Source: Clostridia bacterium | GTDB taxonomy: Bacteria; Bacillota; Clostridia; Oscillospirales; CAG-272 | Direction: 5' to 3' | DNA: 64,000 nucleotides | NCBI GenBank assembly: GCA_017428635.1 | Contig: JAFRQK010000038.1 | Span: 107,677-171,676, forward strand | Part shown: positions 40,879 to 46,173 of the stretch, piece after piece | How the letters are laid out: each line of letters opens with the position of its first letter | Numbering within the stretch: the first letter of the stretch is position 1 | Made by a program: the position numbers and the translations under genes | The notes under the pieces: generated by a model | Told to the model about the DNA's origin: nothing | The model's input: only the letters and a program-made list of their open reading frames with translations | Database searches by the model: none

Positions 40879-43164
40879 TTATGTCTGAGGTTTGATCCTA
40901 TCGAAAAGTCTTTTCTCGAGTTCATCAGTTCTGAGCTTGTCCGCGATATAAGCTTTTCTCAAAAGCTCAGCGGGAATCATCGGGTCGAATTTGTTGAAAG
41001 CAGGCGCTTCATTCGGTGAAACGAGGGATTCTCTGTCGATTCCCTGAGATGAAATATTTGCAAGTTTATTAAGTAGCGCGTCGCCCGTTCCGTTTTTCAA
41101 CTTGAAAGAAATGTAGTAACAGCCGTTGAACTGGATACCGGTAACGCCGAATTCTCCCGAATTACATGCCAGAAAACGTCTGGCGGTTCTGAAGGACCTG
41201 GTTCCGAGCCACGGGAACCAGACCCATGTCGATCCGCCGGTCCTTACGATATCGTGATCGGTAATCCCGGTCGAGCGGGCAACGGCTCTTGCCGAGCGAA
41301 GCCTTGAAAGCGCGCCTTCTTTCAGATAGGGGTATTCCGTATCTTCGATGAGGACCTGTTTCATTCTCTCGACTATCCTCGTGTTTATTTCGCCGTAATC
41401 GCCGGGCCATTCGATCTGCATTTTACCCTCGACGGGTTTGACGTAGATCAATCTTTTTTTCGCGTCGGCTTCTTCGACTTCCCAAACTCTGCCGGCAAGA
41501 GCAAACCTGTCTCCAGGCGGAGGAGCGGTCGATATGGTCCCTATCTCATCCGAACCGCACCTTACGGTAAAATCATCCGAGTCCTTGAATACGGCAAAAA
41601 ACTTATATGAATTGATGATCTTTTCCCCCCTGAGACCGATGATAAGTTCACCGTCTTCGGTAAGTTCAAGATAATCGTCGTTGATCATCGACACAAGAAG
41701 AGTTTTATAGTCGTCCGAAGTTACGGATGAAAAAGGCGGAAGCATCAGCACATGCGCGGCAAGTTCGGCGGGCGTCATCCCGCCGCGTGAGGCAAGCGCA
41801 GACATAGTCTGATGGAACAAAAGGCTGAACGGGAGCGTAACAGTGAAGGGAGGCTCGATAAACCGTTCTTCAACGTAAAGCTGTACTACGGCGATCGCGC
41901 GCAGCAGTTCCCACGGGATCAGTTCGGGAAGAGGCGCGTTAGGCAGCGGCGTTTCCTCTCTGAATACCATCATCATTTCAGGCGGATCACCTCGTCTGCC
42001 GGAGCGGCCGAGGCGCTGTAGGAACGAAGAAACCGAATTCGGCCCCCCGATCTGGATGATTCGTTCAAGTCTCCCGATATCAATACCGAGCTCCATGGTA
42101 GTCGTTGCGCACGTTACAGTCGGTCTGTCGCTTTCTTTCATCTTCATTTCAGCGTATTCTCTGATCGCAGCGGACAAATTCCCGTGATGAATGAGAAATA
42201 TATCTTCGTCCCCTCGATAACGAGCGATCTGCCTAAGCGTGGCGGTTACGTATTCCGTCTCTTCTCTTGAGTTCGAAAATACAAGAGATTTTTTACCGAG
42301 AACGCAATCGTAAACGTATTCGAATCCCCTGTCGAGCGAGTATGAGTCAACGTTATCGTCGGATTCGGACAATCGAGGCTCATCGGGCGACAATTCGCCT
42401 AAAGTAACGGATACGGCAGTATCTTTTGTGTCCGAGGAATCACCGGAATTTATGAAGAAGTGTTCCATACCGATACGCCATACCAAAGCAGTCTTAGGCG
42501 ACGCAGGAGCGGACGTCTGTCTCCCCGATCCGCTGCCGAGCCATCGCGCGGCAGACTCAAGATCGCCGACTGTAGCCGAAAGCCCGATCCTCCGAGGATC
42601 AATTCCGGTTTTTTCAGTCAAACGGGCAAGCTGACAGATGACCTGATTGCCCCTGTCGGTACCTGTCATGGTATGGATCTCGTCGATAACAACGTAACGC
42701 AGATCGCCGAACAGTTTCCCGAAATCGCCGGAACGCCTTATCAGCATGGATTCAAGTGATTCCGGAGTAATCTGCAGTATCCCGCGCGGATCTCTGACCG
42801 CGTTCGCTTTATGTGACGCAGCTACGTCCCCGTGCCAATGATATACGGGTATATCGGCTTCTTCCGTCAGCTCGGTTATTCTTTCAAACTGATCATTAAT
42901 AAGGGATTTCAGAGGCGCGATATATAGTACCCCGAAGCCATTGATCTTATCCCTGTCTTTATAGAGTTCAGAGAGTATCGGAAAGAAAGCAGCCTCGGTT
43001 TTTCCGGATGCCGTTGAAGAAGTAAGCAGAAGATTATCTTCTGTTTTGAGAATGATCTCAGCTGCGGCGACCTGCATTTCATGAAGAGAATCCCAACCCT
43101 TGCGGTAAATAAAATCCTTTATGAAAGGAGAAAAGGAATCAAATGCGGAAAAATCGTTTCCCAC
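40879..43164 (-). CDS. DEAD/DEAH-type Lhr-like helicase (BrxHI-like)
   Basis: Superfamily 2 helicase of 761 residues. Motif I is [17 protein letters not shown], motif II is VIDEIHTM (DEIH), motif III is LSATVGD, and the second RecA fold has [22 protein letters not shown] and [11 protein letters not shown] (motif VI). The C-terminal half carries the winged-helix and Lhr-core-like region ([24 protein letters not shown] stretch; [20 protein letters not shown]). The start GTG at 43162-43164 has GGGAGG upstream; a TTG overlapping the ATPase stop is less likely. BREX type 2 contains a similar helicase (BrxHI). Here it is the third gene of a TerB-ATPase-helicase set and runs into uvrA. DNA or RNA substrate is unknown. 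Confidence 0.88.
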
Positions 43165-43178
43165 TTTATACCTCCCGA

Positions 43179-44507: not shown

Positions 44508-46173
44508 CCCGGTCTCCTTTCTTTTCGATCAAATCTTTGATTTCATCAATATAATCTTCTACGAGTACGTACTTTCCTTTGACGTTTTCTAGAACGATAT
44601 CGCCGATCAGCTCGGAAAAGTATTCGTTGATATCCGAAGCGGCGCTGTCCGGAAAAGCTCCGGCTTCGCGGCACAGTTCTTCAAACGAAAGATCTCGATC
44701 ATAAATCATTTTTAATATGATATTTTCAAACCCGGCACGGTCGGTCGGCACGTTTCCATTTGAGGTCGCGATAAAATCATGAACAGGTGATTCTGCGTCA
44801 GGAACAAAGAAAAGAGATCCTTCGGGTACCTCTTCGAATTCGTCGTCAAACACGTCGCCGACAAGTCGTTCCGTACTGTCCCAGGATGAATTTTCCAGAT
44901 CGATCGCTCCTTCGATAGAGAGAACGTCCTCCGGCGCGTCATAAAAAGCGAGATACGATTCTTCGGCAGATCTCGAACATGAACCGTTATCGATTATATT
45001 TTTTATTTCCGAGGGAAGATCTACAGTAAGACGGGAACGTATCCCTGCGTTTTTCCTGACTATATTTTCACAGTATCTGAGTATCTCGGTGACCTCTCTT
45101 CTGATTTCCTGCGATCTGAAAGGCGAGAATACCGAAACAGAAAGTCTTTTTTTTACGCTGTAAGAACAAAGAGAACCGCTGTAAGCATCCCGTTTGATAA
45201 CGGATTCGGTACCCGATCCGGGAGAAAACAGCCCGAGTCGTCCGGCGATCATTTTCGCGACAGCCTCCGCAAAAATCGATTTAACTTGTTTTAAGAGAAC
45301 AGGATCATCGTTGAGATATCTGCTCTTTTCGGGAACAAAATCAGAACATGCAGAGATAAGACACTCCGAAAAAAGCGACTTATTATCCGCGCATCTCTTA
45401 AGAGCTTCTTCCAGATAAAATTCTTTTAACGAAGAGCGCGCGGCTATGCGAGGAAGAAAAGCGGTTACGGAGTCCGGCAGATCGACCGAATGAATAAGGC
45501 AATAATCGGCAACCCATTCCGACAAATATTTATCAAGTACGGGATATACCGTTCTGTAAGCGTTCCAAAGACCGCATAAAGCGGAAATATCTGCTTTATT
45601 ATCGGAGCTGTCGCCGAGATTTATCAATTCATATACGTACAAAAGAACGTACGACAGATCGGAAACGGGATACCGGAATGAACGGATCTCATCTCGAAGA
45701 TAAAAATAATAATCAAACTGCGCCGTCTTCATCTGGGAATATTGAGGAACGTAAGAGAAAAACGGAACGTGCGGGCAAGGCGCTCCCTTAACGTTTCGAT
45801 ATCTCTCCGCGTCAGACCTGAACTTCTCATAAAAGCCGATGTCTCCGCCCCATTCGAAAACCGAAACCGATTTTAAAAACTCTCCTTCAAGACGCTTTTC
45901 CTCAATCAGTTTTCCGTCGGGTTTTCTCTGGAACTTTCTTTTTTCGGCGAAATCGGCGCCTTTACGCGAATAAGACTGTGTCTGATAGTATTGCTGTCTT
46001 GTTATGGGTTCGGGAGCGATTTTCAAAGTATCATCGTTCGTCCGGACCGGATCTAAATTGATCCTTACAGTACTGACGTCGGGAGCGGAAGGTTTTTGAT
46101 AATTCTTCTCACGCTTTGCGTAAACAGGAACGTCGGACAAAACGAGAAGATCTTCTCTATGTTTTTCTTTCAA
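44494..46173 (-). CDS. TerB_N/TerB_C domain protein
   Basis: A 559-residue protein with no signal peptide. After a basic linker region (about 30-120) comes a TerB_N-like domain: CPHVPFFSYVPQYSQMKTAQ, YYFYLRDEIRSFRYPVSDLS and YVLLYVYELINLGDSSDNK, then LSEWVADYCLIHSVDLP. The C-terminal 80 residues match TerB_C: FENIILKMIYDRDLSFEELC and ASDINEYFSELIGDIVLEN. The middle is helical, without a recognisable canonical TerB. These domains were predicted to be part of tellurite-type, metal-linked stress complexes that process DNA. Start TTG 46171-46173 has GGAGGG six bases upstream; an in-frame GTG at 46215 precedes the predicted transcript start (near 46212) and is excluded. First gene of the TerB-ATPase-helicase-uvrA unit. 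Confidence 0.82.
   Translation of the reverse strand: MKEKHREDLLVLSDVPVYAKREKNYQKPSAPDVSTVRINLDPVRTNDDTLKIAPEPITRQQYYQTQSYSRKGADFAEKRKFQRKPDGKLIEEKRLEGEFLKSVSVFEWGGDIGFYEKFRSDAERYRNVKGAPCPHVPFFSYVPQYSQMKTAQFDYYFYLRDEIRSFRYPVSDLSYVLLYVYELINLGDSSDNKADISALCGLWNAYRTVYPVLDKYLSEWVADYCLIHSVDLPDSVTAFLPRIAARSSLKEFYLEEALKRCADNKSLFSECLISACSDFVPEKSRYLNDDPVLLKQVKSIFAEAVAKMIAGRLGLFSPGSGTESVIKRDAYSGSLCSYSVKKRLSVSVFSPFRSQEIRREVTEILRYCENIVRKNAGIRSRLTVDLPSEIKNIIDNGSCSRSAEESYLAFYDAPEDVLSIEGAIDLENSSWDSTERLVGDVFDDEFEEVPEGSLFFVPDAESPVHDFIATSNGNVPTDRAGFENIILKMIYDRDLSFEELCREAGAFPDSAASDINEYFSELIGDIVLENVKGKYVLVEDYIDEIKDLIEKKGDRDETG

Follow-up and report, generated by a model that had tools for sequence, protein, structure and literature searches.

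Shango is the described anti-phage system closest to the locus reported here. In the sections of PMC10250203 that deal with it, the Shango of Pseudomonas aeruginosa PA14 consists of a TerB-like protein, an ATPase and a DEAD/DEAH helicase, encoded in that order, and it inhibits several P. aeruginosa phages modestly, by 10–100-fold in efficiency of plating; a parallel report on Shango in E. coli is mentioned there as well. Where the review PMC12926258 takes the system up, the mechanism is listed as unknown and the system as largely uncharacterized. The DNA that we analyzed, called the window here, is a stretch of 64,000 nucleotides (positions 107,677 to 171,676 of contig JAFRQK010000038.1, assembly GCA_017428635.1) on contig 29 of the 2.27-Mb genome of an uncultured clostridial bacterium (G000), and profile matches identify a minus-strand cassette within it as sngA-sngB-sngC, a Shango system. 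An earlier reading of the letters alone, the original prediction, had picked out this cassette, and what it saw was real; it took the genes for a compact defense or repair machine of untested function, an apt idea, except that the module already has the name Shango and that relatives of it have been tested against phages in P. aeruginosa and E. coli, as PMC10250203 relates in those sections. The most telling facts go beyond that prediction, and these are the near-core, mainly vertical inheritance of the resident Shango variant in its clostridial family and a LexA-like box that stands before sngABC-uvrA.

Positions 44494..46173, minus strand: sngA, a TerB_N/TerB_C protein of 559 amino acids from a TTG start behind GGGAGG
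Positions 43179..44507, minus strand: sngB, a BrxC/BrxD-like P-loop ATPase of 442 amino acids
Positions 40879..43164, minus strand: sngC, an Lhr-like superfamily 2 helicase of 761 amino acids from a GTG start, in a frame open to TTG 43182

The tight packing that had been described is confirmed, with sngA and sngB overlapping by 14 bases and a gap of 14 bases between sngB and sngC when the latter is read from GTG 43164; the sngA frame is open further, to GTG 46215, though a start there would lie upstream of the expected transcript. Each protein matches its PADLOC model over most of its length, SngA matching PDLC03958 at 1.9e-45 (model residues 61–563 of 573), SngB PDLC03959 at 2.7e-155 and 515.8 bits (residues 1–420 of 442) and SngC PDLC03960 at 3.6e-237 and 787.6 bits (residues 12–755 of 767). 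The predicted domains were also recovered with Pfam, as TerB_N in SngA (4.7e-13, above the cut-off), BrxC_BrxD PF10923 in SngB (3.5e-141) and DEAD (3.7e-28) and Helicase_C (4e-14) in SngC, with TerB_C in SngA (1e-4, 23.0 bits) just below its cut-off of 26.3 in a protein whose SngA model match is near full-length. SngB has the Walker A motif GRYGSGKS, kept in 62 of 62 family SngB proteins, and a Walker B-like LCVFIDEG, and SngC has STASGKT, DEIH, SAT and QRLGRSGR; of the 35 SngC proteins longer than 700 amino acids, all have DE.H, SAT and QRLGRSGR, and 32 fit the motif I pattern.

In the case of SngA, it is the TerB domain itself that differs. A table in PMC10952713 gives TerB (PF05099) for Shango, and a central PF05099 domain is present in three of four plasmid SngA proteins scanned (Pantoea, Klebsiella and Bradyrhizobium) and absent from the fourth, from Paenibacillus; as this last protein is encoded beside SngB and a helicase gene, we do not take PF05099 as strictly defining Shango. 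The window SngA gives no PF05099 match at E ≤ 1 in the Pfam scan, and at E ≤ 0.01 an alignment of 22 SngA proteins that includes it contains TerB_N in 21, TerB_C in 18 and PF05099 in none. The suggestion that TerB-type domains act in metal-linked complexes therefore does not carry over to this protein, and a metal-binding TerB mechanism was rejected. The window cassette shares with the Shango of PA14 and of E. coli (the latter reportedly described by Millman in 2022) the set of TerB-type protein, ATPase and helicase, arranged as described for PA14, together with the PADLOC matches to all three models, and it differs in having a SngA without detectable PF05099 (a comparison made through the plasmid SngA proteins, those of PA14 and E. 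coli being known by description), in being of a type that is mainly vertically inherited and not in a defense hotspot, and in belonging to a genus with a LexA-like box and uvrA.

A more distant comparator is BREX, whose ATPase and helicase the original prediction had seen mirrored here. The resemblance holds, as the ATPase is homologous (PF10923) and SngC gives a weaker match to BrxHI, and in the portion of PMC12278908 on such helicases SngC is grouped with BrxHI, DruE and DpdJ. The BREX methylase, phosphatase and BrxA/BrxB are indeed missing, none being found among ten neighbouring genes scanned with Pfam and PADLOC, with no genome-wide search made. A remnant BREX locus, in which BrxD and BrxHI are left after loss of the methylase and phosphatase, would account for the PF10923 and BrxHI matches, but SngB scores 149.5 bits with the NCBIfam BrxD model NF033438, under the curated cut-off of 350, the PADLOC models score far higher for SngB than for BrxD (515.8 versus 148.4 bits) and for SngC than for BrxHI (787.6 versus 423.4 bits), and the same gene trio recurs in many genomes, all of which makes such a remnant very improbable. 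By sequence, the best solved relatives of SngC are YprA (6znp), which we take to be MrfA, and 5v9x, presumably a mycobacterial Lhr, though the best-matching stretches lie mainly in the first helicase domain, and SngC is far nearer to the SngC model than to these helicases.

Distribution and inheritance of the sng genes

We sampled 146 genomes of the window's uncultured clostridial family; among the named genomes of the collection, those closest to the window's genome are metagenome-assembled genomes labeled 'Clostridia bacterium' and 'Oscillospiraceae bacterium', many of them from ruminant guts. SngB was found in 105 of the 146, in 77 of the 104 genomes with completeness of 90% or more and contamination of 5% or less, and in 55 of 71 genera, as a single match in 101 of the 105 genomes, with two matches in the other four that in three cases are split or partial pieces. 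SngA was likewise found in 105 genomes and SngC (E ≤ 1e-60) in 104; SngB and SngC occur together in 102, SngB without SngC in 3 and SngC without SngB in 2, the SngA and SngB presence lists differ when compared in two genomes (G131 and G049), and all three genes are present in 101 genomes and none of them was found in 38. For comparison, 132 genomes gave a match to rpoB (E ≤ 1e-100) and 26 to Cas1 (23 above the cut-off), the comparison with Cas1 being one of prevalence and tree congruence having been computed for the sng genes. More widely, 63 of 247 genomes of the order, own family included, have SngB, as do 40 of 393 genomes of the class, where some matches are weak; a mobile-type SngB query matched 691 of 72,556 records of a plasmid collection at E ≤ 1e-5, which may include relatives of SngB, and 542 of these are on plasmids typed as conjugative.

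A global SngB tree of 97 proteins, inferred by a quick maximum-likelihood method that gave long-branch warnings, separates the resident from the mobile type. The 30 resident-type family proteins placed in it (of 62 in hand, five chosen and 25 drawn at random) form one clade with a Shimodaira–Hasegawa-like approximate likelihood ratio (SH-aLRT) of 99, beside 12 of the 20 proteins included from the order's other families and apart from a 24-row clade (support 100) that mixes genera of family, order and class, as expected of mobile DNA, and into which five genomes of the family fall. Four proteobacterial plasmid proteins form a separate group (100), and 11 cyanobacterial proteins another (99). 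Congruence was computed against rpoB trees of matching genomes, mobile-type genomes included, for SngB in 57 genomes, SngA in 52 and SngC in 40, and the three gene trees match the rpoB trees far beyond chance. Bipartitions held in common with rpoB number 18 of 54 for SngB, 20 of 49 for SngA and 14 of 37 for SngC, compared with a mean of 0.3 and a maximum of 2 in 200 label shuffles of SngB (mean 0.3, maximum 3 across the three genes), and gene-tree bipartitions with support of at least 0.95 are found in the rpoB tree in 15 of 18, 15 of 19 and 13 of 18 cases, respectively. In these gut bacteria, the sng genes behave as ordinary inherited chromosomal genes.

The expectation that the three genes stay together in relatives was borne out for sngA and sngB, which are together in nearly every family locus read, but less so for sngC. 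Of the 97 resident-type genomes that have SngB as well as SngC, 52 carry sngC next to the other genes, 4 carry it no more than 10 kb away and 41 have it on a different contig, and its retention in the last group indicates that the triad is kept together without visible linkage. Around one such unlinked sngC (G130, L336:1-2055), an AddA/UvrD-like helicase was recognized by eye two genes away, and an RNase Y-like gene close by.

A second lineage with a near-core SngB is found in the cyanobacteria, where a Nostoc-centered search (E ≤ 1e-60) found one SngB match each in 89 of 99 genomes of the Nostoc family, two of them with internal stop codons, and where SngC was present in 14 of 14 SngB-bearing genomes checked. 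Their SngB forms a clade separate from the clostridial one, and in the two Nostocales loci scanned (L290 and L264) the product of the gene before sngB gives TerB_C and coiled-coil matches and no TerB_N match. As this protein has TerB_C without TerB_N, TerB_C, SngB and SngC look like a common core, and docking on SngB may be the part played by TerB_C. The proteins encoded before sngB in other Nostocales look alike in alignment.

Promoter, LexA-like box and uvrA

Positions 46279..46298, minus strand: intrinsic-terminator-like hairpin of 8 pairs with a TTTTTGTTTG tail, a consensus match only, between the upstream GAF-domain gene and sngA
Positions 46219..46248, minus strand: sigma-A type sngA promoter, TTGACA at 46248-46243, an 18-nt spacer and TATAAT at 46224-46219, with 12 of 12 matches
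Positions 46196..46209, minus strand: CGAACTAATGTTTG, a LexA/SOS-like box of exact pattern 9 nt past the -10 element
Positions 38015..40858, minus strand: uvrA, encoding an excision-repair ATPase, 20 bases 3′ of sngC

A perfect TTGACA/TATAAT promoter and a LexA-like box stand before sngA in all four sampled members of the window's genus (G000, G086, G023 and G130), with spacers of 17–18 nt and the box 8–9 nt past the -10 element (inverted in G023), and the bases around promoter and box differ among them; since the genomes are related, these do not count as four independent trials. The chance of an exact box per 370 nt is 0.18% in random stretches of the loci and 0.17% in first-order Markov copies of the promoters. 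The cassette is followed directly by uvrA in all four genomes, even in G130, where sngC is on another contig and sngA-sngB-uvrA remain, and the window listing contains no terminator-like site between sngC and uvrA.

The LexA consensus of Gram-positive bacteria comes from work on B. subtilis, and its use here is supported by similar boxes in the lexA promoters of these four genomes. Upstream of the best lexA matches and near a -10 element are CGAACATCTGTTTA (G000), CGAACATATGTTTA (G086), CGAACAAGCGTTTA (G130) and AGAACGGGTGTTTA (G023), of the form CGAACN4GTTTA in three of the genomes and AGAACN4GTTTA in one. The G000 genome has 13 sites with the exact pattern, counted as 18 matches over both strands, compared with 3 for the pattern read backwards; 12 of the 13 are inside a mechanically called open reading frame, the sngA box among them since the sngA frame is open to GTG 46215. 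With up to one mismatch allowed, the window has 14 matches, not above the 17.07 expected by chance. The pattern by itself is thus weak, and the argument rests on the promoter context, the conservation in the genus and lexA, from which we predict that sngABC-uvrA is probably SOS-inducible in the window's genus.

Two other sites with such a pattern were seen. At L322:1501-1514 in the window's genome a perfect palindrome, CGAACATTTGTTCG, lies by eye between a 160-amino acid open reading frame and a PHP-phosphatase-like gene and is a possible LexA target, and at window positions 54462-54475 the exact pattern occurs, perhaps by chance, just past the start of the gene after ileS, which by eye is DNA polymerase III delta′-like.

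Defense, genome maintenance and the resident cassette

We consider it likely that this is a resident Shango, which has a single copy on each chromosome, passes mainly by vertical descent within the family and, in the window's genus, is placed with uvrA behind a promoter with a LexA-like box, and that it acts as a DNA-handling complex. The computations show what the genes are, how they are distributed and spaced, that their trees agree with rpoB, and that promoter and box are there; a single transcript, LexA repression and a protein complex are inferred, and the biochemical steps might be as follows. LexA would hold expression of sngABC-uvrA low until the repression was lifted by DNA, whether of the cell or of a phage, that is damaged or replicates abnormally; SngA would recruit the ATPase to DNA by means of a C-terminal part that is perhaps a winged helix, SngB would act as an ATP-driven switch, and SngC would remodel or unwind the DNA, so that replication of an intruder stalls or a lesion becomes accessible. 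The position of Shango beside uvrA suggests a defense system that has settled in next to genome maintenance.

Several observations weigh against this account. The mobile type is present in five family genomes (G139, G008, G076, G122 and G006), two bipartitions of the SngB tree, one of which is the mobile-type group, conflict with the rpoB tree with strong support on both sides, and SngB presence, mapped on an rpoB tree that covers 90 genomes (63 of the 105 that have SngB and 27 of the 41 that lack it; three of the rpoB rows are partial), needs at least 14 changes, although shuffled presence needs a mean of 23.3 and none of 500 shuffles was as low as 14; genome incompleteness can also mimic absence of the genes. 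The exact box precedes sngA in 5 of 55 resident loci, the four genus members and one other, and in 0 of 19 loci from the order, 0 of 11 from the class and 0 of 1 of the mobile type, so we rejected an SOS box as a family-wide trait. G099, a member of another genus with uvrA downstream, has no CGAACN4GTTTR box with up to one mismatch in its sng-uvrA stretch, and at its lexA locus the sole such site is not upstream of lexA; SOS control would therefore be a trait of the genus. G000 and G086 each have a second lexA-like gene, at which no box within one mismatch was found, by eye no other known SOS gene was recognized at the exact G000 sites, lexA being the one SOS gene checked, and the box before sngA is possibly just the operator of uvrA. 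Finally, SngA has 66% identity to its counterpart in the congener G086, below SngB (87%) and SngC (85%), and UvrA has 92%, but the neighbouring GAF gene diverges as much (69%), so that SngA is not singled out and its divergence makes a weak sign of an arms race; estimates of the ratio of nonsynonymous to synonymous substitution (dN/dS) against G086 are 0.02–0.13, rough values because dS is near saturation.

Two narrower explanations sit within the resident account, so that their likelihoods overlap with its own. The cassette may be a plain Shango defense kept by constant phage pressure, with the box a matter of uvrA history and the cassette merely in the operon; the 10–100-fold inhibition of several P. 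aeruginosa phages in the Shango sections of PMC10250203 and the near confinement of the box to one genus speak for this, but the genes are mostly single copy, near-core and tree-congruent, sngC is kept though unlinked in 41 of 97 genomes, the window neighbours are non-defense genes, and promoter and box stand directly before sngA and not before uvrA, and we would put its chance at a little short of even. Exaptation for genome maintenance, in which SngABC repairs or restarts damaged replication and effects on phages are secondary, would fit the arrangement with uvrA and the LexA-like box, the lack of a detectable PF05099 domain in resident SngA compared with three of four plasmid SngA proteins, and the other near-core lineage, that of the heterocystous cyanobacteria (89 of 99 genomes with SngB, SngC in 14 of 14 checked). 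Set against it, none of the three genes was found in 38 of 146 family genomes, so that they are not essential, and we know of no repair phenotype for Shango genes; we regard this explanation as possible but rather doubtful.

Returning to the resident account, a broader conjecture, which we hold tentatively and with well under even confidence, is that Shango-type triads have become resident at least twice, in this clostridial family and in heterocystous cyanobacteria, and that here the triad belongs, with uvrA, to the SOS response, as an immune device that became, or was always, part of genome maintenance and would treat phage and damaged host DNA alike. A lineage that keeps the triad in a near-housekeeping state, with an SOS-type promoter and no TerB domain, offers a natural handle on the core of Shango, for which TerB_C, SngB and SngC are the candidate minimal machine and a role in DNA damage is worth seeking.

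Neighbouring genes and minor observations

The housekeeping surroundings that had been described for the cassette are as stated, the ten neighbouring genes in the window not being defense genes by Pfam and PADLOC, and a hidden Markov model match to a 'defense system' need not sit in a defense island. One conserved chromosomal site across the family was rejected, as the commonest neighbour cluster beyond the sng genes is found in only 7 of 57 loci. Flanks were compared on mechanical gene calls. The resident set held 123 proteins, drawn from 22 of 57 loci, and the non-resident set, drawn from 25 loci, held 125 of its 131 proteins (four very long and two end proteins left out). The resident neighbours are mostly household enzymes among the best 25 of 117 Pfam families, and two recombinases appear in the non-resident flanks among the best 25 of 130; as the comparison is between these best 25, recombinases cannot be called absent from the resident loci. 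With PADLOC at 1e-20, the resident flanks matched 12 families with one protein each, and the non-resident flanks matched 31, the best 25 of which include DpdF, PsyrT, SspH and six SngA proteins. The resident-flank families include mad3 and mad8, models that the window UvrA also matches. The strength of their match to this ordinary UvrA (38015-40858) points to possible false MADS calls. In one family genome, two sngC-like matches lie in tandem (G052:C374:59-4377).

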